Made by a program: the position numbers and the translations under genes
Notes under the pieces: model-generated
What the model saw: only the letters and a program-made list of their open reading frames with translations
Database searches by the model: none
What the model was told of the DNA's origin: nothing
Source of the DNA: Gammaproteobacteria bacterium
GTDB taxonomy: Bacteria; Pseudomonadota; Gammaproteobacteria; Burkholderiales; Rhodocyclaceae
DNA: 64,000 nt
Assembly: GCA_018825305.1 (NCBI GenBank)
Contig: JAHJEO010000018.1
Span: forward strand, 124,001-188,000
Reading direction: 5' to 3'
Part shown: positions 7,784 through 19,923 of the stretch, one piece after another
How the letters are laid out: the number at the start of each line of letters is the position of its first letter
Numbering within the stretch: position 1 is the first letter of the stretch

Positions 7784-10009
7784 ATGAAACAGCATCTGCC
7801 CCGTTTCCTGCTGGGATTGCTGGTGCTGGCCGTGCTGCTCGGCCACGCCGCCGGCCTCTATCGCATCGGTTTCATCGAGCGTTTCGACGCCATCATCTAC
7901 GACACCAAGGTGCGGCTGACCATGCCGCGCAACGTCGACGAGCGCCTGGTCATCCTCGATATCGACGAGAAGTCCCTGGCCGAAGTCGGACGCTGGCCGT
8001 GGAACCGCGAGCGCATGGCGACGCTGATGAACAAGCTGTTCGACCGCAACGGAGTCGCACTGCTCGGCTTCGACATCGTCTTCGCCGAGCCGGATGCCAG
8101 TTCCGGCCTGCCGGTGCTCGAATCGCTGGCGAAGAAGGATGGTCGCGAGGCCGGTGTCATCCAGTCGTTGCTGCCTGACTTGCGTCACTCGCTCGACTAC
8201 GATGCGCTGTTCGCCGCCTCGCTGAAGAACCGCCCCGTCGTCCTTGGTTACTACCTGTCGAGCAAGGTGGATGGCACCAGTTCCGGCGCCTTGCCGCCAC
8301 CGACGCTGCCGGCGGGAACTTTCACGGGCCGCAACATCGCCTTTACCAGCTGGCCGAATTTCGGCGGCAATCTGCCGGCATTCCAGAAGAATGCGGCGGG
8401 TGGGGGCCACTTCAATCCCCTGGTCGATTTCGACGGCATTTCGCGGCGGGTGCCGATGCTGGCCGAGCACAAGGGCGCCTACTACGATTCGCTATCGCTG
8501 GCGATGGTGCGGGCGCTGCTGGGTTCCCCGCCCTTGGTGCCGGGTTACGCCGATGGCAGCGGCGGCTCTGGCTACGCCGGGCTCGAATGGCTCGACCTGC
8601 CCACCGCACGCGGCAACCTGCGCATCCCGGTGGACGAGAACGTCGCGGCGCTGGTGCCGTATCGCGGCTTCCAGGGCAGCTACACCTATATTTCGGCTGC
8701 CGACGTGCTTGCCGACCGCATTTCCGCCGAGCAGCTCAAGGGCAAGATCGTGCTGATGGGAACCACGGCACCGGGCCTGATGGACCTGCGCGCGACCCCC
8801 GTCGGCAGCACCTATCCCGGGGTGGAGGTGCACGCCAACCTCATATCCGGCATGCTCGACGGCGCCATCAAGTACCGTCCGGCCTACGTCCTCGGCGCCG
8901 ACGTGCTGCTGGTGCTGATCGCCGGCGGCGTGATGGTCTTCCTGCTGCCACTGCTCTCGCCCTTCCGCGCCAGCATCGTCGCGCTGATCGTGCTGGTGTT
9001 CCTGCTGACGGTCAATCTCTCGTTCTGGCACGCCGGCAACATGGTGCTGCCGCTCGCCGCCGGCTTCCTGCTGGTGACGCTGCTCTACGCCCTGAACATG
9101 TCCTGGGGCTATTTCGTCGAGTCGAAGGCCAAACGGCAGTTCACCGAACTGTTCGGCCAGTACGTGCCGCCCGAACTGGTCGACGAAATGGCGAAGAACC
9201 CCGAGGGCTACACCATGGATGGCCGCAAGGCCGAACTGACGGTGCTGTTCTCCGACATCCGCGGCTTCACCACCATCTCGGAGGGTCTGCAGCCGGACCA
9301 GCTGGCGACGTTGATGAACCTCTACCTCGGCTCGATGACCGAGGTCGTGCGCAAGCACCGCGGCACCCTCGACAAGTACATCGGCGACGCCATCATGGCA
9401 TTCTGGGGCGCGCCGGTCAGCGATGCCGAGCATGCGCGAAACGCGGTGATCACGGCGCTGGACATGCAGGAGGCGCTTCACGGACTTAACGTGGACCTGC
9501 AGGCCAAGGGCTGGCCCGAACTCAAGATCGGCGTCGGCATCAACACCGGCACCATGACGGTCGGCGACATGGGATCAAAGGTGCGCAAGGCCTACACCGT
9601 GATGGGCGACGCGGTCAACCTCGGCTCGCGTCTGGAGGGCATTACCAAGCAGTACGGCGTCGGCATCATCGTTGGCGACGGCACGCGCGACCTGACCAAA
9701 AAGGATTTCGTCTATCGCGAGCTCGACCGGGTACGGGTCAAGGGCAAGGCCGAGCCGGTCGGCATCTACGAGCCGCTGGGGCAGGAGGGGCAGGTGACGA
9801 AGGAGGACCTGGAGGAGCTCAAGCTCTGGAATCAGGCCCTGCGATCCTACCGCGCCCAGGACTGGGATCAGGCCGAGGTGATGCTGCTCAACCTGTCGCG
9901 CATCCGAAGCCGTTACCTGTATGATCTCTACGCCAAGCGTATCGCCCATTGCCGCCAGGAACCACCGGGCGAGGGCTGGGACGGCGTGACGACATTCGAG
10001 ACCAAGTGA
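7784..10009 (+). CDS. CHASE2-sensor class III adenylate cyclase
   Basis: 741 residues. An N-terminal anchor (LPRFLLGLLVLAVLLG), an extracytoplasmic CHASE2 domain (LVILDIDEKSLAEVGRWPW onward), three membrane helices near residues 365-440, and a C-terminal cyclase domain. Metal aspartates lie in LFSDIRGFTT and IGDAIMAFWG. The lysine of LDKYIGD and the aspartate of VMGDAVNLGSR are the usual ATP-specifying pair, so cAMP is the expected product. Its CHASE2 domain parallels that of the kinase at 3490, so one external cue could feed both protein phosphorylation and cAMP. The next gene encodes a cyclic-nucleotide phosphodiesterase. Confidence 0.93.
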   Translation: MKQHLPRFLLGLLVLAVLLGHAAGLYRIGFIERFDAIIYDTKVRLTMPRNVDERLVILDIDEKSLAEVGRWPWNRERMATLMNKLFDRNGVALLGFDIVFAEPDASSGLPVLESLAKKDGREAGVIQSLLPDLRHSLDYDALFAASLKNRPVVLGYYLSSKVDGTSSGALPPPTLPAGTFTGRNIAFTSWPNFGGNLPAFQKNAAGGGHFNPLVDFDGISRRVPMLAEHKGAYYDSLSLAMVRALLGSPPLVPGYADGSGGSGYAGLEWLDLPTARGNLRIPVDENVAALVPYRGFQGSYTYISAADVLADRISAEQLKGKIVLMGTTAPGLMDLRATPVGSTYPGVEVHANLISGMLDGAIKYRPAYVLGADVLLVLIAGGVMVFLLPLLSPFRASIVALIVLVFLLTVNLSFWHAGNMVLPLAAGFLLVTLLYALNMSWGYFVESKAKRQFTELFGQYVPPELVDEMAKNPEGYTMDGRKAELTVLFSDIRGFTTISEGLQPDQLATLMNLYLGSMTEVVRKHRGTLDKYIGDAIMAFWGAPVSDAEHARNAVITALDMQEALHGLNVDLQAKGWPELKIGVGINTGTMTVGDMGSKVRKAYTVMGDAVNLGSRLEGITKQYGVGIIVGDGTRDLTKKDFVYRELDRVRVKGKAEPVGIYEPLGQEGQVTKEDLEELKLWNQALRSYRAQDWDQAEVMLLNLSRIRSRYLYDLYAKRIAHCRQEPPGEGWDGVTTFETK

Positions 10010-10037: not shown

Positions 10038-10805
10038 ATGAAGGTCCGCATCCTTGGGTGCAGCGGCGGCATCGGTGGCCGCCACCTGCGCACGACCTCG
10101 ATGCTGATCGACAACGACATCCTGATCGATGCCGGCACCGGCGTGGCGGACCTGTCGATCGCCGAGCTGGCGCAGATCGACCATGTGTTCCTGACGCACA
10201 CGCACATGGACCACATCGCCTGCCTGCCGCTGCTGATCGATACCGTCGGCGACATGCGCAGCCGGCCGCTGACGGTCTATGCGACCGATGCCACCATCGA
10301 GATCATGCGCGCCCACATCTTCAACTGGGCGGTATGGCCGGACTTCTGCGAGATTCCGAACTCCAAGAAGCCCTTCATGCGCTACGAGAACCTCGCCCTC
10401 GGCGAGACCGTCGATCTCGAAGGCCGCCGCATCACCCCGCTGCCGGCCAACCATACCGTCCCGGCGGTCGGCTACCAGATGGACTCGGGTGACGCCAGCC
10501 TGGTCTTCTCGGGCGACACCGGGCCGTGTCCGGAGTTCTGGGCCGCGGTCAACAAGATAGACAACCTGCGCCACCTGATCATCGAAACCGCCTTTTCCAA
10601 CCGCGAACGGCGGCTGGCGATGATCTCCAAGCACCTGTGTCCGAGCATGCTGGTCGAGGAACTGGCGCACCTGCAGCGCGACGCGGATATCTACATCACC
10701 CACCTCAAGCCGGGGCAAATCGAACTCACCATGCAGGAGATCGAGGACGGCATCGGCGAACTGCGGCCGCGCATGCTGCAGAACAACCAGGTCTTCGATC
10801 TTTAG
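10038..10805 (+). CDS. Metallo-beta-lactamase-fold 3',5'-cyclic-nucleotide phosphodiesterase
   Basis: 255 residues, with the class II phosphodiesterase look. Metal ligands are visible in FLTHTHMDHIACLP (HxHxDH), in LPANHTVPAVGY, FSGDTGP and YITHLKPGQ. No signal peptide, so it acts in the cytoplasm. Position directly between an adenylate cyclase and a cyclic-nucleotide-binding protein makes cAMP the likely substrate. Other hydrolase activities of this fold (tRNase Z-like, arylsulfatase) are possible but less fitting. The next start codon is 2 bases after its stop. Confidence 0.85.
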   Translation: MKVRILGCSGGIGGRHLRTTSMLIDNDILIDAGTGVADLSIAELAQIDHVFLTHTHMDHIACLPLLIDTVGDMRSRPLTVYATDATIEIMRAHIFNWAVWPDFCEIPNSKKPFMRYENLALGETVDLEGRRITPLPANHTVPAVGYQMDSGDASLVFSGDTGPCPEFWAAVNKIDNLRHLIIETAFSNRERRLAMISKHLCPSMLVEELAHLQRDADIYITHLKPGQIELTMQEIEDGIGELRPRMLQNNQVFDL

Positions 10806-10807
10806 CC

Positions 10808-11899
10808 ATGGCTGCGAACGGCATTGACACCGTGGTACCCACCCTGACCCGGCTGCAGCCGCTGGCGGCTCTGGGCGTGGACAGCCTGCGTGAGTTGGCG
10901 CCGCATTGCCACCGCGAGCGCGTGACACGCAACCTCGACCCGTTTCAACTGCGCGACTGGCAGGGCCAGGTCGTTTATCTGGTCAAGGGCGAACTCAAGC
11001 TTGAATTCGAAGACGGCATGATTCAGGTCATCGTCGGCGGCTGGGGTGATGCGCTGTATCCCATCGGCCGTGGCCGGCTGGCGCCGACGCTGACCAAGGC
11101 CATCACCGATGTCGAAATGCTGCGCTTCGACGAGGATCTGGTCGACATCATGATGACCTGGGACCAGATCGCCGCGCGGGGCCAGGAAACCGAGACGGAC
11201 AGCGATGCCACCGACTGGCGCACCATGTCCGGCATGTTCACGGTGCAAAGCCTGACTCAGGGTGTGTTTGCGTCGATGCCGCCCGCCAATATCGAGCAAT
11301 TGCTTGGCCATTTCCAGCGAGTCCCGGTCAAGCGCGGCGAACAGGTTATCCGCCAGGGCGACCCCGGCGACTACTACTACCTGATAGAACGCGGCCGTTG
11401 CGCCGTGACGCGCGAAGTGGCGGGCGCGACGGTCGAGTTGGCCGAGTTGCGCGAGGGCGATTCGTTCGGCGAGGAGGCCCTGGTCGCCGACATGGCGCGG
11501 AATGCCACGGTGACCATGAAGACTGATGGCATGCTGCTGCGGCTGAACAAGACCGATTTCATGGACCTGTTGCGCGAGCCCTTGCTGCAACGTTTGCCGC
11601 CCGCCGAGGCGCAGAAAAGAATTGCCGGTGGCGCCCAGTGGATCGATGTGCGTTTCCCGGCCGAGTATCAGTGCGACGGCCTGCCGGGCGCCCTCAATAT
11701 CCCGGTCAACGAGATCCGCCATGCCATCGCCGGACTCGATCCGGACCGGGAATACATAGTCTATTGCCAGACGGGCCGTCGCAGTTCGGCCGCCGCCTTC
11801 CTGCTGTCGCAGCGCGGATTGCATGCGCATCTGCTGGATGGGGGTCTCAAGGCCCTGCTTGCCGCTGGCGCGACCAACCAGAACAAGGGTTTGAAATGA
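10808..11899 (+). CDS. Cyclic-nucleotide-binding / rhodanese fusion protein
   Basis: 363 residues from the ATG at 10808. Residues about 15-110 form a diverged cyclic-nucleotide-binding-like domain. Residues about 155-265 form a clear one, with FGEEALVADMARNATV as the phosphate-binding cassette including its arginine. Residues about 270-355 form a rhodanese domain with the active-site loop CQTGRRS. There is no helix-turn-helix, so it is a cAMP effector rather than a Crp-type regulator. The rhodanese cysteine could carry sulfur or act as a redox or protein-binding site; this is unproven. Its stop overlaps the next start (ATGA). Confidence 0.88.
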   Translation: MAANGIDTVVPTLTRLQPLAALGVDSLRELAPHCHRERVTRNLDPFQLRDWQGQVVYLVKGELKLEFEDGMIQVIVGGWGDALYPIGRGRLAPTLTKAITDVEMLRFDEDLVDIMMTWDQIAARGQETETDSDATDWRTMSGMFTVQSLTQGVFASMPPANIEQLLGHFQRVPVKRGEQVIRQGDPGDYYYLIERGRCAVTREVAGATVELAELREGDSFGEEALVADMARNATVTMKTDGMLLRLNKTDFMDLLREPLLQRLPPAEAQKRIAGGAQWIDVRFPAEYQCDGLPGALNIPVNEIRHAIAGLDPDREYIVYCQTGRRSSAAAFLLSQRGLHAHLLDGGLKALLAAGATNQNKGLK

Positions 11900-14277
11900 G
11901 TACCGCTATGTCTTCGCCACAGGATCCGGGAGGTTTGTCCGATGTCGGCAGCCGGCTGGCATTCTTCAAGAATCTCCAGACCGTCACCAACAAGATCCAT
12001 GCGACCTCGAACATCGACGAGATCATGCTGGAGTTGTCGCAGGACGTCTGCAGCCTGTTCAATGCCGATCGCCTGACGATCTATTCCATCGGCGAGGACA
12101 AGGCCTCGATCGTTTCCAAGGTCAAGACCGGCCTCAACTCCTTCAAGGACCTGCGGCTGCCGATCGCCGACCAAAGCATCGCCGGCCACGTCGCCCTGGC
12201 CCGCAAGATCGTCAGCATCCGCGATGTCTATGACGAAGGCGAACTGAAGTCGATCCATCCGCAGCTGCGCTTCCTTCAGGAAGTCGACAAGCGTACCGGT
12301 TACCGCACCAAGCAGATGCTGGTGGCACCTGTCGTCGATGCCCAGAACAACGATCTGATGGGCGTTGTCCAGATCATCAACAACAAGGCTGGTGTGCCCT
12401 TCGCCGCTGTGGCGGAGGAGGGCGTCAAGGGGCTTTGCGAAACCCTGGCCATTGCCTTTAACCAGCGCAACAAGCCGGCCCAGGTCGCCAAGTCCAAGTA
12501 CGACCACCTCGTACTCGATGCAATCATCGCCGCCCAGGAACTCGAACTGGCGACCCGCACCGCACGCCGCAAGAACGTCGATGTCGAGGAAATCCTGATC
12601 GCCGATATGCAGGTGACGACCGAGAAGATCGGTGCCGCGCTGTCCAAGTTCTTCGGCGTGCCGTACGAGGGATTCCGCAGCGACCGCATCAAGCCGGTCG
12701 ACCTGATGAAGAACCTGCGCCGCGAGTACGTCGAGCAGAACCAGTGGGTTCCTGTCGAGGAGACATCCGAAGGCATCCTGGTGCTGTGCATGGACCCGGA
12801 ACAGGTCAAGGGTTCGCGCGTCGTGAACAACGTATTCTCCCGTGCCAAGATCGTTTATCGAGTCACCACGGTGCGCGAGTTCAAGAAGACGGTCGATCTC
12901 TTCTTCGGTGGCAGCTCAGACGCGCCCTACATGGATGATTCATCGGTCGGCGACCTTTTGTCGACCCTCGATTCGGGCGAAGGCGAAGCCGAGAGCATGA
13001 CCGAAGACGTGTCGGCCGCCGCAGACAACGAACTGGTCAAACTGGTGAACAAGGTCATCGTCGATGCCTACCAGCAGGGAGCTTCCGACATCCACATCGA
13101 GCCGGGCATTGGCAAGGACAAGGTTTCGATCCGCTTCCGCAAGGACGGCTCGCTGGGCAAGTACATCGAGATTCCTGCCAGTTACCGACCGGCCATCGCC
13201 GCGCGCATCAAGATCATGTGCGACCTCGACATCGCGGAGCGCCGCAAGCCGCAGGACGGCAAGATCAAGTTCAAGAAGTACGGCCCGCTCGACATCGAAC
13301 TGCGTGTTGCCACCATTCCGACCACCGGCGGCGTCGAAGACATCGTGATGCGTATCCTTGCCGCCGGCGAGCCGATACCGATCGACAAACTGGGCGTGCT
13401 GCCGACCAATCTGGCCAAGCTCAAGGAATGCGTGTCCAAGCCCTACGGTCTGTTCTTCGTCTGTGGCCCGACCGGCTCCGGCAAGACCACCACGCTACAC
13501 TCCGTGCTCGGCTACCTCAACAAGCCGGACACCAAGATCTGGACGGCAGAGGATCCGGTCGAAATCACCCAGAAGGGCTTGCGCCAGGTACAGGTGAACA
13601 AGAAGGCCGGCCTCGATTTCCCGATGGTAATGAAGGCATTCCTGAGGGCCGACCCGGACATCATCATGGTCGGCGAGATGCGCGATGCCGAAACCACCGG
13701 CATCGGCATTGAGGCCTCGCTTACCGGCCACCTGGTGTTCGCCACCCTGCATACCAACAGCGCGCCGGAATCCATTATTCGCCTGCTCGACATGGGCATG
13801 GACCCCTTCAACTTCGCCGATGCCCTGCTCGGCATCCTCGCCCAGCGACTGGCCAAGCGCCTGTGCAAGTGCAAGGAGGCTTACACGCCGGATGCGGAAG
13901 AGGTGAAGCAGTTCATGACCGAGTATTGCGGCGAACTGGTTAATACCGAAACCTTCAAGAAGGATCAGAAGGCCGCGCTGGAAGCCACCTACCAGCGGCT
14001 GCTCAAGGACTACGGCAAGGACGGCAAGTTGCAGTTCCACCGCGCCAAGGGTTGCGATGCCTGCAACAAGACTGGCTACAAGGGCCGACTCGGCCTGCAC
14101 GAGCTGATGGTCGGAACCGATATCACCAAAAAACTGATCCAGGAACATGCGCGGGTCGCCCAGCTTGTCGCGCAGGCGCTGGAAGACGGCATGCTGACAC
14201 TGAAGATGGACGGTATGGAAAAGGTCTGCCAGGGCGTGACCGACATGAAGCAGGTTCGCACGGTCTGCATCAAGTGA
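11896..14277 (+). CDS. GAF-domain fused GspE/PilB-type secretion ATPase
   Basis: 793 residues from the ATG at 11896, overlapping the previous stop. A GAF domain occupies residues about 35-190. A shortened MshEN/T2SSE-N-like domain follows (KIGAALSKFFGVPYEGF). The ATPase core has ASDIHIEP, Walker A GPTGSGKTT, the Asp box AEDPVEI, Walker B IIMVGEMRDAETT and the His box. A four-cysteine zinc site is present (CKCKEAY and GCDACNKTGYKGR). Such ATPases power type IV pilus or type II secretion assembly. No PilC, PilM-Q or secretin gene is in the window, so its machine must be encoded elsewhere. The GAF domain suggests ligand control. Confidence 0.92.
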   Translation: MSTAMSSPQDPGGLSDVGSRLAFFKNLQTVTNKIHATSNIDEIMLELSQDVCSLFNADRLTIYSIGEDKASIVSKVKTGLNSFKDLRLPIADQSIAGHVALARKIVSIRDVYDEGELKSIHPQLRFLQEVDKRTGYRTKQMLVAPVVDAQNNDLMGVVQIINNKAGVPFAAVAEEGVKGLCETLAIAFNQRNKPAQVAKSKYDHLVLDAIIAAQELELATRTARRKNVDVEEILIADMQVTTEKIGAALSKFFGVPYEGFRSDRIKPVDLMKNLRREYVEQNQWVPVEETSEGILVLCMDPEQVKGSRVVNNVFSRAKIVYRVTTVREFKKTVDLFFGGSSDAPYMDDSSVGDLLSTLDSGEGEAESMTEDVSAAADNELVKLVNKVIVDAYQQGASDIHIEPGIGKDKVSIRFRKDGSLGKYIEIPASYRPAIAARIKIMCDLDIAERRKPQDGKIKFKKYGPLDIELRVATIPTTGGVEDIVMRILAAGEPIPIDKLGVLPTNLAKLKECVSKPYGLFFVCGPTGSGKTTTLHSVLGYLNKPDTKIWTAEDPVEITQKGLRQVQVNKKAGLDFPMVMKAFLRADPDIIMVGEMRDAETTGIGIEASLTGHLVFATLHTNSAPESIIRLLDMGMDPFNFADALLGILAQRLAKRLCKCKEAYTPDAEEVKQFMTEYCGELVNTETFKKDQKAALEATYQRLLKDYGKDGKLQFHRAKGCDACNKTGYKGRLGLHELMVGTDITKKLIQEHARVAQLVAQALEDGMLTLKMDGMEKVCQGVTDMKQVRTVCIK

Positions 14278-14461: not shown

Positions 14462-16066
14462 ATGGACTCCGTAGAAGACCTGTTCCGCCGGCTTGAGCAA
14501 CTCAATGCCATCGGCGCCGCGCTCTCGAAGGAGCGCGACATCAACCGGCTGCTGGAAAACATCCTGCTCGCCGCCAAGGCCATCACCCACGCCGATGGCG
14601 GCACGCTCTACCGCATGACCGAGGATCGCCAGGCGCTGCGCTTCGAGATTCTCCGCACCGATTCGCTGCATATCGCGCTGGGCGGCACCACCGGCAACCC
14701 GATCACCTTCCCCGACCTGTCGCTGCATGACGCGGCTGGCAAGCCCAACAACTCCCTGGTCGCCGCCTACGCCGCGCTGCACGATGAGACGGTGAATATC
14801 GCCGACGCCTACACCGAGGCCGGCTTCGACTTTTCCGGCACCCGCAAGTTCGACGAGCATACCGGCTACCGCTCGCAGTCCTTCTTGACCGTGCCGATGA
14901 AGAACCACGAGAACGAGATCATCGGCGTGCTCCAGCTCATTAACGCCAAACACCCCGAAAGCGGCGCGGTCGGTCCCTTTTCGGCTTCCGACCAACGGCT
15001 GGCCGAGTCGATGGCCTCGCAGGCAGCCATCGCGCTGACAAACCGCCAGCTGATTTCCCAGCTGGAAACACTGTTCGAGTCCTTCATCACCCTCATCAAC
15101 CTTGCCATTGACGAGAAATCACCCTACACGGGCGGTCACTGTCAGCGTGTTCCAGAGTTGACGATGATGATCGCGGAAGCCGTCAATGCGACGACCGACG
15201 GGCCGCTGGCGGACTTCGAGATGACCGACAAGGACCGCTACGAGCTCAAGATCGCCGGACTGCTGCATGATTGCGGCAAGGTCACCACGCCGGTGCATGT
15301 GGTGGACAAGGCCACCAAACTGCAAACCCTGTTCGATCGCATTCAGCTCGTCGATACCCGCTTCGAAGTGCTCAAGCGCGATGCCGAGAATAATGCCCTG
15401 CGCCAACAACTGGCCCTGCGCGACAGGCGTGATGCGGCGGCGGAGGACGCAATCTGGAACCGCTATCGGGCCGAGGTGGTGGCACTCGACGGCGAGCGCG
15501 AGTTCCTGCGCAAGGCCAACATCGGCGGCGAAGCGATGTCCGAAGCTGACCAGCAGCACGTGCGCTCCATCGGACAGAACCACAAATGGCGCAATGTCGA
15601 CGGCGTCGAGGCCGATTTCCTCAGCGCCGACGAGACCGAGAATCTCTCCATCCGCGCCGGCACGCTGACGCAGAAGGAACGCGAGATCATCAACTATCAC
15701 ATCGTGGCGACCATCAAGATGCTGGAGCAGTTGCCATGGCCCAAGCACCTTACGCGGGTGCCAGAATATGCTGGTGGTCATCATGAGCGCATGGATGGCA
15801 AGGGCTATCCCAAGGGCCTGACGCGCGAGCAGATGTCGCTGCAGGCCCGCATGATGGGCATCGCCGACATCTTCGAGGCGCTGACGGCGCGTGACCGGCC
15901 CTACAAGCACGGCATGAAGCTGTCGCAGGCGCTGTCGATCATGGAAAACTTCAGGAAGAATGGCCACATCGACCCGGATCTTTTCGATGTATTTATCCAG
16001 CAGAAAGTCTATCTGCAGTACGCCAAGCGGTTTCTGGACCAAGCGCAAATCGATGAGACTGATTGA
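14462..16066 (+). CDS. GAF / HD-GYP cyclic-di-GMP phosphodiesterase
   Basis: 534 residues. A GAF domain covers residues about 5-190, with FDEHTGYRSQSFLTVPM typical of GAF-HD-GYP proteins. The HD motif GLLHDCGKVTTPVHV lies at residues 266-280 and HHERMDGKGYPKGL at about 440-453. HD-GYP domains hydrolyse c-di-GMP. About 175 residues separate HD from GYP, far more than the roughly 60 in RpfG-type proteins. The extra part is charged and helical (LRQQLALRDRRDAAAEDAIW). A ribosome site (GGGAG) precedes the ATG. It is the last gene before the pilin promoter, and c-di-GMP commonly controls pili. Confidence 0.92.
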   Translation: MDSVEDLFRRLEQLNAIGAALSKERDINRLLENILLAAKAITHADGGTLYRMTEDRQALRFEILRTDSLHIALGGTTGNPITFPDLSLHDAAGKPNNSLVAAYAALHDETVNIADAYTEAGFDFSGTRKFDEHTGYRSQSFLTVPMKNHENEIIGVLQLINAKHPESGAVGPFSASDQRLAESMASQAAIALTNRQLISQLETLFESFITLINLAIDEKSPYTGGHCQRVPELTMMIAEAVNATTDGPLADFEMTDKDRYELKIAGLLHDCGKVTTPVHVVDKATKLQTLFDRIQLVDTRFEVLKRDAENNALRQQLALRDRRDAAAEDAIWNRYRAEVVALDGEREFLRKANIGGEAMSEADQQHVRSIGQNHKWRNVDGVEADFLSADETENLSIRAGTLTQKEREIINYHIVATIKMLEQLPWPKHLTRVPEYAGGHHERMDGKGYPKGLTREQMSLQARMMGIADIFEALTARDRPYKHGMKLSQALSIMENFRKNGHIDPDLFDVFIQQKVYLQYAKRFLDQAQIDETD

Positions 16067-16422: not shown

Positions 16423-16438
16423 TGGCACTGTTTGTGCT
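16423..16438 (+). promoter_or_regulatory. Sigma-54 (RpoN) promoter of the pilin gene
   Basis: TGGCACTGTTTGTGCT matches the -24/-12 consensus TGGCACRNNNNTTGCW with the invariant GG and GC at correct spacing. It lies about 50 bases before the pilin ATG. Sigma-54 with PilSR-type activators drives major pilin genes in Pseudomonas and Geobacter, so the site supports the pilin assignment. Confidence 0.75.
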
Positions 16439-16488: not shown

Positions 16489-16668
16489 ATGAAATCGATT
16501 CAAAAGGGTTTCACCCTGATCGAGCTGATGATCGTCGTTGCGATTATCGGCATCCTCGCTGCCATTGCGATCCCGGCGTTTGCTGACTATCGTGCCAAGG
16601 CCAACGACACCACGGCAACGGCTGACGTGAAAAACGGGCTGACCGCGATCGTCGCCGCCCAAAAATAA
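16489..16668 (+). CDS. Truncated type IV pilin (short PilA-N / geopilin-like)
   Basis: 59 residues, too short for the ORF track. The leader MKSIQKG ends in glycine before F, giving a mature pilin of 52 residues. The N-terminal helix [20 protein letters not shown] is canonical, including E5. The mature protein ends soon after the helix ([13 protein letters not shown]), so it has no globular head. Geobacter conductive-type pilin is about 61 residues mature. F1, F24 and Y27 are kept here, but the later aromatic positions are absent (N at 32, sequence ends at 52). A strong AAGGAG and a sigma-54 promoter precede it. A secreted partner gene follows after 25 bases. This is a full-length short pilin, not a broken gene: both ends carry proper signals. 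Confidence 0.9.
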
Positions 16669-16693
16669 TCGCAGCTAATATAGGAGTAACGTC

Positions 16694-17185
16694 ATGAAAA
16701 AATCGATTATTGCAGGCGCCATCCTTGCCGTTTGTTCTGTTGGTGCCTCCGCTGCCCCCGAGTACTCCGTCGTGATTGGCTCAGGAACCTTCGTGATGGG
16801 TGACTGCCCCAACCATCTGGCGGACGACCCCAAGATTCTTGCTTCGACCGGTGTCATGCTGGCTGCTTCGTGCATTCAGGGTGCTCCGCGCATCGTGCTG
16901 GCAGGTTGCCATACGGCGGGCCTGATCAAGAAGCGTTCGGCCAAAGTCGCGTGCGACGATGATGTTACCAATGGCGTAACGCCCACCGTTCCCGCATGCG
17001 ACGGAACCGATCCGGCTACGCCGGCGGGCGCGCCGTCCGGCAGCAACGTGGTGGTCGGATTTGAAGGCGCCACGATCATGGTGGCGAATTCCGGTGGTGG
17101 CTCGCTTTCGGGTGCAACTGTAGCCAGTGGCACGACCTGCGATGCGGCTGGCGTCTCGGTAAAAGCCGTGGTGGATGCTTTTTGA
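16694..17185 (+). CDS. Secreted Cys-rich protein, possible pilin partner (PilA-C/Spc-like)
   Basis: 163 residues with a Sec signal peptide (MKKSIIAGAILAVCSVGASA, cleavage before APEYS). The mature part of about 143 residues contains six cysteines that could form three disulfides, and is rich in Gly, Ala, Val and Thr like a beta-rich pilin head. TAGGAG precedes the ATG. It sits 25 bases after the headless pilin and before a terminator, so the two form one transcript. By analogy with the Geobacter PilA-N / PilA-C (short pilin chaperone) pair it may stabilise or complete the pilin. I recognise no domain, so the role is inferred from position and secretion only. Confidence 0.6.
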   Translation: MKKSIIAGAILAVCSVGASAAPEYSVVIGSGTFVMGDCPNHLADDPKILASTGVMLAASCIQGAPRIVLAGCHTAGLIKKRSAKVACDDDVTNGVTPTVPACDGTDPATPAGAPSGSNVVVGFEGATIMVANSGGGSLSGATVASGTTCDAAGVSVKAVVDAF

Positions 17186-17232: not shown

Positions 17233-17293
17233 GCCCCGTCCATTTTTCTGCAGCTTGCAAGCTGTTGCGGAAGTTGGGCGGGGCAGTTTTTTT
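17233..17293 (+). terminator. Rho-independent terminator of the pilin cassette
   Basis: GCCCCGTCCA (17233-17242) pairs with TGGGCGGGGC (17275-17284), followed by seven T. An inner perfect hairpin CAGCTTG/CAAGCTG lies in the loop. It ends the two-gene pilin transcript before the ABC genes. Confidence 0.75.
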
Positions 17294-17349
17294 GCTGCAT
17301 GGCGTGCGCGACCGAAGACCAACCGCATTTTCCAGAATATTCCGATTCC

Positions 17350-18159
17350 ATGAGTGTGTTTGCCGTTATTTCTAACTCGTTCCGCTTGACGGTGCGGGGC
17401 CGATATCTGTATTTTGTGTTCGCCATTCTGGTATTCATGGCCGGCGCAACCTTGATGGCTGCAGCATTCAGCGCCCGCCAGCCCGCGACCGTGGCCCTCG
17501 ACGTAGGTATCTCGGTTTTTCGGTTTTGCATACCAATTTTTGCCGCCGTTGTCGTGCAGGGCCTGGTTGCACACGAGTTTGAGCGGCGATATTTTCTCGC
17601 GAGCATGACCTATCCGCATTCGCGGACTGTCTGGCTGGTCGGGCGATACCTGACGGTCATTCTGCTGGTCGCCGCGGTATTGCTGGTTCATGCCTTGATC
17701 CTTCGTGAGTTGGTCGAGATGATAGGGCGGGGCTATAGTCAAGCGACCAAAACCGCATTGGGCCAGCAGTATTGGTGGGTTGTTGGTTTCGCGTTTGTGG
17801 ACTTTGTGGTGATCACATCAGTGGCCTTGTTGATTGCGGTATTCGCGACCACTCCCGGCCTTGTGGTTTTTGGCGCGATCGGATTCCTGCTGATCGCAAG
17901 ATCTTATTCGTCAATTCTGGCGTTGCTTGACGGCGCTACCGGTTTGGTGACGAACGAAAAAACCTACCGGGAGGGCATCGGCCTGCTGCATTACCTCGTG
18001 CCCGATCTCGGCGCGCTGGATATTCGCGCCACCGCTCTGTATGGACGAATGGACTTTCTGCCCGCCATCTGGCCGCAACAGGTTACAGGCGCCTTGTTGT
18101 ACATACTTGCAACGACGGCTTTGGCCATCTGGTTGTTCCAGCGCAAGCGATTCGTTTGA
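17350..18159 (+). CDS. ABC-2-type membrane permease
   Basis: 269 residues from the ATG at 17350; the track start at 17299 overlaps the terminator region and has no ribosome site. Six or so hydrophobic helices are visible (YFVFAILVFMAGATLMAAA, WWVVGFAFVDFVVITSVALL, VTGALLYILATTALAIWLF). The helices lie in a pattern typical of ABC-2 membrane subunits. It is likely the membrane partner of the ATPase at 19036. The gene has visibly lower GC than the signalling block to its left. Substrate unknown. The downstream gene starts at its stop codon. Confidence 0.65.
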   Translation: MSVFAVISNSFRLTVRGRYLYFVFAILVFMAGATLMAAAFSARQPATVALDVGISVFRFCIPIFAAVVVQGLVAHEFERRYFLASMTYPHSRTVWLVGRYLTVILLVAAVLLVHALILRELVEMIGRGYSQATKTALGQQYWWVVGFAFVDFVVITSVALLIAVFATTPGLVVFGAIGFLLIARSYSSILALLDGATGLVTNEKTYREGIGLLHYLVPDLGALDIRATALYGRMDFLPAIWPQQVTGALLYILATTALAIWLFQRKRFV

Positions 18160-18981
18160 ATGGTGGCGCGGATGAAGTGGCTGGGTATTGCGGCCGTTGC
18201 TTTGCTGGCATTCATTCTCAATGCAAATTGGACCAAGGGCCGCTGGCAGAATGTCGCTGTCGTTTTCGCCGATCGTGTTGTGGTGTCAGCCCCGGTTCAG
18301 GTGGTTCTCTATGGGGGAGACAGATTTCTTGCCGCCGATGTCGAGGCAATCCGGGCGAGTGTTACGGGTATGGATATCGGCACGGTAAACCTCGGCTATC
18401 TGTCGCGAGCACAGAACGTCGCTTCAGAACTCAACCCCTGCCATGAGGATAATTACTACACGGCAAATGCGCTACTGACGTTGGCTGGTGCCGACAGGCA
18501 AGCCGTTGGTATATTGGAGAGGGCTATCAGTTGCCGCTTTTGGGATGAAATGCCCCCCTTCTATCTTGGTTTCAATCAACATTTCTTTCATGGGAATTAC
18601 GCTGACGCCCAGCGTAACCTGCAACTTGCCGCATCACGATCAACCATCAGGACAACCAGTTTCACGAAGCTGGCCATCATGATCAAGGCCGAGTCTTTCA
18701 AGAACGAGCGCATGGCCCTTGAGTTTCTCACTGAGGAAAAAGACAAGACGCGCGATGCAAAATTGCGCGCCTTGCTCGAAGTTCGCGCCGATCGCATCAA
18801 AGGTCTGCTGCGGTTGAGGGACGCCCAGGCAATTTATGAAGCGCGCTTCGGCAAGAAACTGGAGAACCCCGGGCAATTGATGGAAAACGGCATAATTCAG
18901 GCCTTTCCGATTGATCCGATGAAAATAGGCTACCGTTTTAAGAACGGGGAGTTCCACTTGAATGAACTGGCTATGCAATGA
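18160..18981 (+). CDS. Membrane-anchored protein of unknown function in the pilin/ABC cluster
   Basis: 273 residues starting right after the permease stop; ATG 18172 is an alternative. A single N-terminal hydrophobic segment (WLGIAAVALLAFILNA) anchors or exports it. The rest has helical, TPR-like stretches (LLTLAGADRQAVGILERAI, FHGNYADAQRNLQLAAS). The C-terminal part (FGKKLENPGQLMENGIIQAF PIDP) resembles the pilin-like 'P.DP.G..Y' ending seen in some pseudopilin-associated proteins, a weak impression. I do not recognise the family. Its place between permease and ATPase suggests one complex. Confidence 0.6.
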   Translation: MVARMKWLGIAAVALLAFILNANWTKGRWQNVAVVFADRVVVSAPVQVVLYGGDRFLAADVEAIRASVTGMDIGTVNLGYLSRAQNVASELNPCHEDNYYTANALLTLAGADRQAVGILERAISCRFWDEMPPFYLGFNQHFFHGNYADAQRNLQLAASRSTIRTTSFTKLAIMIKAESFKNERMALEFLTEEKDKTRDAKLRALLEVRADRIKGLLRLRDAQAIYEARFGKKLENPGQLMENGIIQAFPIDPMKIGYRFKNGEFHLNELAMQ

Positions 18982-19035: not shown

Positions 19036-19923
19036 TTGACTAGCGTTCTTGAATTCAAATCAGTAAGCAAGACCTTCCGCCGGTGGCGCAAGGAAATTCC
19101 CGCCTTGCGCAATGTTTCCCTGAATATCGGCGAAGGTGAGGTGTTCGGTTTCGTGGGGCCGAATGGTGCCGGCAAGTCGACCACGATCAAGATCATGCTT
19201 GACGTGATTCGAGATTATCAGGGCGAGGTCAGCATTTTTGGTGTTCCGGCACGCGAAGCTGCGGCCCGCAAGGGTGTTGCCTATGTCCCGGAGGCACCGG
19301 CTGTCTATGAGCAATTTACCCCGATCGAGGTATTGCGCATGGGGCTGGCCATGTACGGCGTCCGTCGCGAGGATGCGGAAAAATGGTGCATCGGCTGGTT
19401 GGAACGATTTTCCATCGCCCATGCGGCAAAACGTCGTGTGCGCGAGCTTTCCAAGGGTACCGTGCAGCGCGTGGTGCTGGCCCATGCCATGGCGGTGTCG
19501 CCACGCTTGCTCGTTCTGGACGAGCCGCTTTCAGGCCTGGATCCGATCGGGCGGAAGGACGTCGTGGAAATTCTTCTCGAATTCAAGCGGCAGGGCGGAG
19601 CGATCTTTTTTACTTCGCATGTTCTCCACGACGTCGAGCGCATCGCCGATCGATTTGGCTTGATCCACAATGGCGAACTGCGCGCGGTGCGTGCGCCTAG
19701 CGAACTCGTGGGCGAAGACGAGCGTGTCTTCGTTCGAAGCCAGGGGGCGACAGCGGTCGCCGGCATGACCCCGGAACCCGGAGGACGCTGGGTGCAGGAG
19801 GTGGCACGACCGGAGTTGTGGGCATTGCTTCGATCTTTGGAGACTGCCGGCCATGTGCTGGTTGAAATCAAGCCGGCTTTGTCGCTCGAGACAGCCTTCA
19901 TGCATGTGGTGAAGGGCGACTGA
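19036..19923 (+). CDS. ABC transporter ATP-binding protein
   Basis: 295 residues from a TTG start at 19036. Walker A GPNGAGKSTT, Q-loop region, signature ELSKGTVQRV (LSKGT instead of LSGGQ), Walker B LLVLDEPLSGLDP and the H-loop TSHVLHDVE are in order. It fits the ABC-2 exporter subfamily that pairs with permeases like the one at 17350. Role unknown; in Geobacter, genes of this type next to pilA belong to a surface-polysaccharide/anchoring locus, as I recall it. It closes the AT-richer segment. Confidence 0.85.
   Translation: MTSVLEFKSVSKTFRRWRKEIPALRNVSLNIGEGEVFGFVGPNGAGKSTTIKIMLDVIRDYQGEVSIFGVPAREAAARKGVAYVPEAPAVYEQFTPIEVLRMGLAMYGVRREDAEKWCIGWLERFSIAHAAKRRVRELSKGTVQRVVLAHAMAVSPRLLVLDEPLSGLDPIGRKDVVEILLEFKRQGGAIFFTSHVLHDVERIADRFGLIHNGELRAVRAPSELVGEDERVFVRSQGATAVAGMTPEPGGRWVQEVARPELWALLRSLETAGHVLVEIKPALSLETAFMHVVKGD

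Follow-up and report, generated by a model that had tools for sequence, protein, structure and literature searches.

Genes and transcription signals at the locus

The window, by which we mean the whole 64,000-nucleotide stretch of DNA that was analysed, carries on its forward strand a pilA-N-like gene for a short prepilin of 59 amino acids (16489..16668; stop codon at 16666-16668). It is followed on the same strand by a pilA-C-like gene for a predicted exported protein of 163 amino acids (ORF 16694..17185), hereafter called the head protein. The two genes are 25 bases apart, counted from the pilin stop to the start of the head gene, which agrees with the preliminary description of this DNA. 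Both genes have a good ribosome-binding site; that of the head gene, read from the sequence, is AGGAG at 16682..16686 (+).

A sigma-54-type promoter element, TGGCACTGTTTGTGCT (GG-N10-GC, of the -24/-12 type), lies upstream of the pilin gene at 16423..16438 (+). This pattern has one exact match in the window, which by itself is no better than chance (a mean of 1.1 matches was expected). Of the related loci described below, 21 of 32 had such a site (score at least 10 out of 12) ahead of the pilin, compared with 2.2% of shuffled upstream sequences. On the 3′ side of the gene pair, folding energies indicate an intrinsic terminator, with a hairpin at 17233..17284 (+) and a T run after it. The hairpin has a dG of -35.3 kcal/mol (z -4.5), and none of 200 shuffled sequences was equally stable. 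The promoter-type site and the terminator hairpin thus bracket the two genes, and the earlier proposal that both are expressed from one short transcript is plausible.

The terminator stands between the gene pair and a downstream cassette of three genes on the same strand. The cassette encodes an ABC-2 type permease (17299..18159, with an alternative start at 17350; PF12679 below the cut-off, E 0.0035), a TPR-like protein (18160..18981; no Pfam match, TPR read from the sequence) and an ABC ATPase (19036..19923; PF00005, E 2.5e-27). The permease occupies the same slot in relatives, and the ATPase is 39-80% identical in all 34 loci compared.

Upstream of the short pilin, the window encodes a GAF-MshEN-T2SSE (PilB-like) ATPase (11749-14277) and a GAF-HD-GYP protein (14462-16066). 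About half of the relatives examined carry both at the corresponding position, mostly with 63-86% identity, which suggests a linked motor and c-di-GMP control. At 7784-10009 and 10038-11899, the translations resemble a CHASE2 adenylate cyclase, a metallo-hydrolase and a cyclic-nucleotide-binding protein with a rhodanese domain.

The short pilin

The pilin has a single Pfam match, PF07963 N_methyl (E 1.4e-10), and the protein stops after its helix. Hence, the preliminary description was right that it lacks a globular domain. The top PDB matches were PilA-N chains of Geobacter (7tgg_A, E 1.9e-15; 9egp_A, E 2.1e-15), while the top NCBIfam match was PilA_Myxo, below the cut-off. The mature helix extends no further than residue 53, and its only aromatic residues are F1, F24 and Y27. 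Judged by its length and database matches, the window pilin is a class III prepilin that lacks everything beyond the helix, as in the split pilin of the Geobacter type.

The same genome encodes the PilQ secretin. Its other pilin-like genes that were read out resemble MSHA, minor or type II pilins, and no second PilA-like major pilin was found among the pilin matches read out, part of them in full. Among these matches, the pilin and its head form the only PilA candidate found in the genome.

The head protein

The head protein starts with MKKSIIAGAILAVCSVGASA followed by APEY, which looks like a Sec signal peptide (16694-16753) preceding the mature protein (16754-17182). A lipobox reading is disfavoured because the residue before the cysteine is a valine. 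Six cysteines (in GDC, ASC, AGC, VAC, PAC and TTC) were read in the mature part, in line with the earlier description of an exported six-cysteine protein. That description had also called the protein beta-rich-looking, which we can endorse with moderate confidence: the AlphaFold2 (AF2) model of the mature protein has nine strands plus a short helix and a C-terminal helix, at a pLDDT of 72.

Searches with the head protein as a single sequence gave nothing useful in Pfam, NCBIfam or the PDB, and scanning the genome contigs with it revealed no relative. In 200 related genomes, BLAST-level comparison yielded one full-length relative (27% identity, E 6.8e-5), which also adjoins a short pilin.

A family of head proteins paired with short pilins

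Because library and single-sequence searches of the head said almost nothing, we used the downstream TPR-like protein as bait among the 200 related genomes. It was present in 35 of them, and nearly all carriers had a short pilin (53-56 amino acids from the GFTLIE motif) followed by a small exported protein. The ABC-2 permease, the TPR-like protein and the ABC ATPase were near this pair in most of 34 relatives. The exported proteins could be aligned on the motif CSANV ... S-x-KG-xxx-F-x-G-x-S-x-GG-x-V and form a head family that is not named by Pfam or NCBIfam.

With a profile of these proteins, we then searched genomes at three taxonomic levels: 399 from the order, 369 from the class and 200 from the taxonomic family. 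In total, about 60 genomes, mostly of the same order, have a short pilin followed by a head-family protein, usually near the ABC-2 permease, the TPR protein and the ABC ATPase. The pairing was tested only on loci that had not fed the first head profile. The head profile alone led to 29 independent loci, and in every one of them the gene immediately upstream, in the same orientation, encoded a pilin of 52-56 amino acids; in at least 16 of them the permease motif followed within 1.6 kb 3′. Two weak profile matches without a pilin (L097, L098) were taken as false.

The arrangement of the pair varies among loci. The head gene is present in tandem copies in some of them (L066, L083, L086, L094), and short pilins occur in tandem in L066, L086, L062, L069, L068 and L073, some with a head gene of their own and some without. 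Locus L044 contains a second insert-type head-like gene after the first, without its own pilin (10356-10823, minus strand), and L105 encodes an ordinary long pilin (153 amino acids from the motif) near the split pilin on the opposite strand (minus strand, 2319-2967 of the reverse complement). A sigma-54 activator gene of the PilR-like type lies just 5′ of the split pilin in L042 and L071. We also sought natural fusions of pilin and head and found none; the candidate long frames, in L105 and L106, are separate genes. A one-chain product by read-through of the pilin stop, considered for loci with both genes in one frame, was dropped since the signal peptide would intervene.

Within the family, the window head is an outlying six-cysteine subtype. 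Its insertion of about 45 residues, which contains cysteines, was placed by alignment at approximately 16925..17065 (+); it is common to L041, L042 and L044 and absent from typical members. A core-family profile built without the window head and its subtype did not retrieve the window head, and hhalign of the window head alone against the core family scored at chance level, so that a direct link to the core profile was dropped. A profile of L041, L042 and L044 only did find the window head among the window ORFs (E 2.2e-6), and L042 in turn matches the core family at E 6e-12. Membership of the window head in the family is well supported by gene position together with this chain of similarity, not directly.

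Loci L042 and L071 represent one genus and one locus, with 84% DNA identity upstream. The same slot holds an insert-type head in L042 and a typical head in L071; therefore, two head types fill one slot.

Similarity to PilA-C of Geobacter

Among 177,635 PDB sequences, the best match of the family profile was 9egp_B, PilA-C of Geobacter metallireducens, with each of three different family alignments. The E-values were modest (0.0046, 0.014 and 0.03); as a yardstick, 9egp_B itself finds PilA-C of G. sulfurreducens at E 0.016 only. Antibody matches in these profile searches were discarded as noise from an ASTKG-like stretch. Comparison by hhalign of the family with the two Geobacter PilA-C proteins gave P-values of 4.5e-5 and 4.6e-5, and of 2.5e-6 against both together. 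The single scores were 28.8 and 28.3, against at most 16.0 and 16.9, respectively, for shuffled sequences; in neither comparison did any of the 200 shuffles come up to the true score. The common core of family and PilA-C runs from an S-x-N-V strand through a K/S-G turn to an F/Y strand. A scan of the genome contigs with a Geobacter PilA-C sequence retrieved no relative. On these profile comparisons, the head family is a distant homologue of PilA-C, seen only with a profile. The preliminary description had suggested a functional PilA-C of unrelated sequence; the word "unrelated" was wrong, as the family profile matches both Geobacter proteins far above shuffled sequences.

Structural models point the same way for typical family members. 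The AF2 model of a typical member has a pLDDT of 89.6 and a pTM of 0.79, and among 350,542 PDB chains its Foldseek ranks 1-3 are the PilA-C chains 9egp_B, 7tgg_a and 6vk9, with probabilities of 0.94, 0.92 and 0.82 and weak E-values (0.2-1). Rank 4 is the Thermus pilin PilA4. According to this model, the typical member has the PilA-C fold. The expected likeness to PilA-C was thus borne out for the typical member, but not for the window head, whose own model (pLDDT 72) gave only noise and no match in the PDB.

Interpretation of the gene pair

Obligate pairing, profile similarity and the fold of a typical member are three largely independent lines of evidence for the split-pilin idea put forward in the preliminary description. 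We consider it probable (roughly 0.83) that the gene pair specifies a single major type IV pilin composed of two chains, of the PilA-N/PilA-C type; that head and pilin assemble together is what we infer from homology. The 59-amino-acid prepilin would be cleaved and its helix would form the filament core, in the role of PilA-N. The 163-amino-acid protein would be exported by Sec and fold in the periplasm into a small beta domain, presumably disulfide-bonded. Either ahead of assembly or in the course of it, this domain would dock onto the C-terminal half that the pilin helix exposes, much as PilA-C does in the filaments of G. sulfurreducens (PMC11046646, PMC12954529). It would then form the outer surface of the pilus at a ratio to the pilin of probably about 1:1, in the role of PilA-C. 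Transcription of the pair would run from the sigma-54 promoter to the pair's own terminator. The downstream ABC transporter and TPR-like protein may serve as a dedicated accessory, by analogy with PilGHI of Myxococcus. A point against the two-chain reading is that, according to a different school in the literature, PilA of Geobacter is able to make filaments in the absence of PilA-C (PMC9207759).

Several other roles of the head protein were weighed against this reading. A chaperone or stabiliser role has been proposed for PilA-C of Geobacter, and the head might likewise assist the short pilin in the periplasm as a dedicated chaperone or stabiliser and be absent from the finished filament. Pairing and cotranscription would suit a chaperone as well as a head, and PMC5174107 quotes a report that PilA is no longer expressed when GSU1497 is lost. 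Cryo-EM of Geobacter filaments nevertheless shows PilA-C and PilA-N in equal parts (PMC12954529, PMC11046646), and it is the PilA-C chains of those filaments that the family fold matches, which makes the chaperone role unlikely. The head could also be a secreted accessory, for example an adhesin or a protein of the matrix, whose only tie to the pilin is the shared operon. It is exported, low in complexity and highly variable, its sequence drift resembles that of surface-exposed proteins, and L066, L083, L086 and L094 carry tandem copies. Such a protein would hardly be expected beside a truncated pilin in 29 of 29 loci or to resemble PilA-C specifically in both sequence and fold, and we regard this possibility as very unlikely.

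Every one of the 34 loci retrieved through the TPR protein had the permease, TPR-like protein and ATPase close by, as would be expected if the head were exported by the neighbouring ABC transporter as its substrate (a secreted peptide, for instance) and had nothing to do with pili. Yet the head has an ordinary Sec signal, a terminator separates it from the permease, and in L046, L053, L062 and L063 the TPR and ATPase genes are kilobases away while pilin and head are still adjacent; a transporter substrate is therefore highly improbable. Equally improbable is a conductive e-pilus made of the short pilin alone, with a dispensable head. In favour of it, the pilin is of the PilA-N type. Against it, two of the three tyrosines that were mutated in PilA of G. 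sulfurreducens (PMC4974642), Y32 and Y57, have no counterpart in the window pilin, and pairing with a head was universal in the loci tested (29/29).

The two-chain pilin might in addition be modular: a fixed short-pilin locus with a near-constant helix and a dedicated ABC set, in which the head gene is both swapped and diversified by recombination. This extension, exemplified by the different head types of L042 and L071, is tentative and in our view rather doubtful. If it were true, the bacterium could change the coat of its pilus and leave the core unchanged.

Split pilins have been discussed almost only for Geobacter, where filament formation by the short pilin alone is disputed. In the open-licence literature, we found no discussion of PilA-C beyond Geobacter and its relatives, and the only match for "PilA-C" together with "Betaproteobacteria" concerned pili of Myxococcus. 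With the same gene pair in dozens of related bacteria, the two-piece pilin seems much more widespread than that literature describes. That a divergent PilA-C family accompanies short pilins in another phylum speaks for the head being a structural component of these pili. The family also offers many organisms other than Geobacter for testing the role of the head, probably including Azoarcus BH72, and provides a family model for proteins without a Pfam or NCBIfam name.

Comparison with known systems

In G. sulfurreducens, the pilin subunit consists of two chains (PMC11046646). Like the Geobacter PilA-N/PilA-C pairs (6vk9, 7tgg, 9egp), the window has a short class III prepilin that ends after the helix, with a small exported beta protein encoded by the next gene. 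The head family shares with PilA-C the S-x-N-V / G / F-or-Y core and, in the typical member, the fold found at Foldseek ranks 1-3. It differs in that its sequence is detectable only by profile, in the six cysteines and insertion of the window subtype, and in its taxonomic range, which covers the order of the window and further orders of the same class rather than the Desulfuromonadales. By locus number, the ABC-type exporter gene xapD (GSU1501) of G. sulfurreducens is also near pilA-N/pilA-C (GSU1496/1497) (PMC4974642).

Azoarcus BH72 has cotranscribed pilA, encoding a short prepilin, and pilB genes that are both required for pili, with an RpoN promoter (PMC3262810). The window resembles this system in its short prepilin, second gene and sigma-54-type site, and the PilR-like sigma-54 activator gene before the pilin in L042 and L071 is a further likeness. 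Unlike Azoarcus, the window has no pilSR directly upstream. PilB of Azoarcus BH72 likely belongs to the head family.

In Myxococcus xanthus, an ABC transporter set likewise adjoins the major pilin gene (pilA-pilGHI), and PilGHI has been described as essential for pilin translocation (PMC3724824). Its PilA, in contrast, is a single long chain. The gene content at our locus, with a permease, an ATPase and a third protein adjoining the pilin, is that of a PilGHI-type accessory, and the ABC transporter of the cassette may act like PilGHI of Myxococcus.
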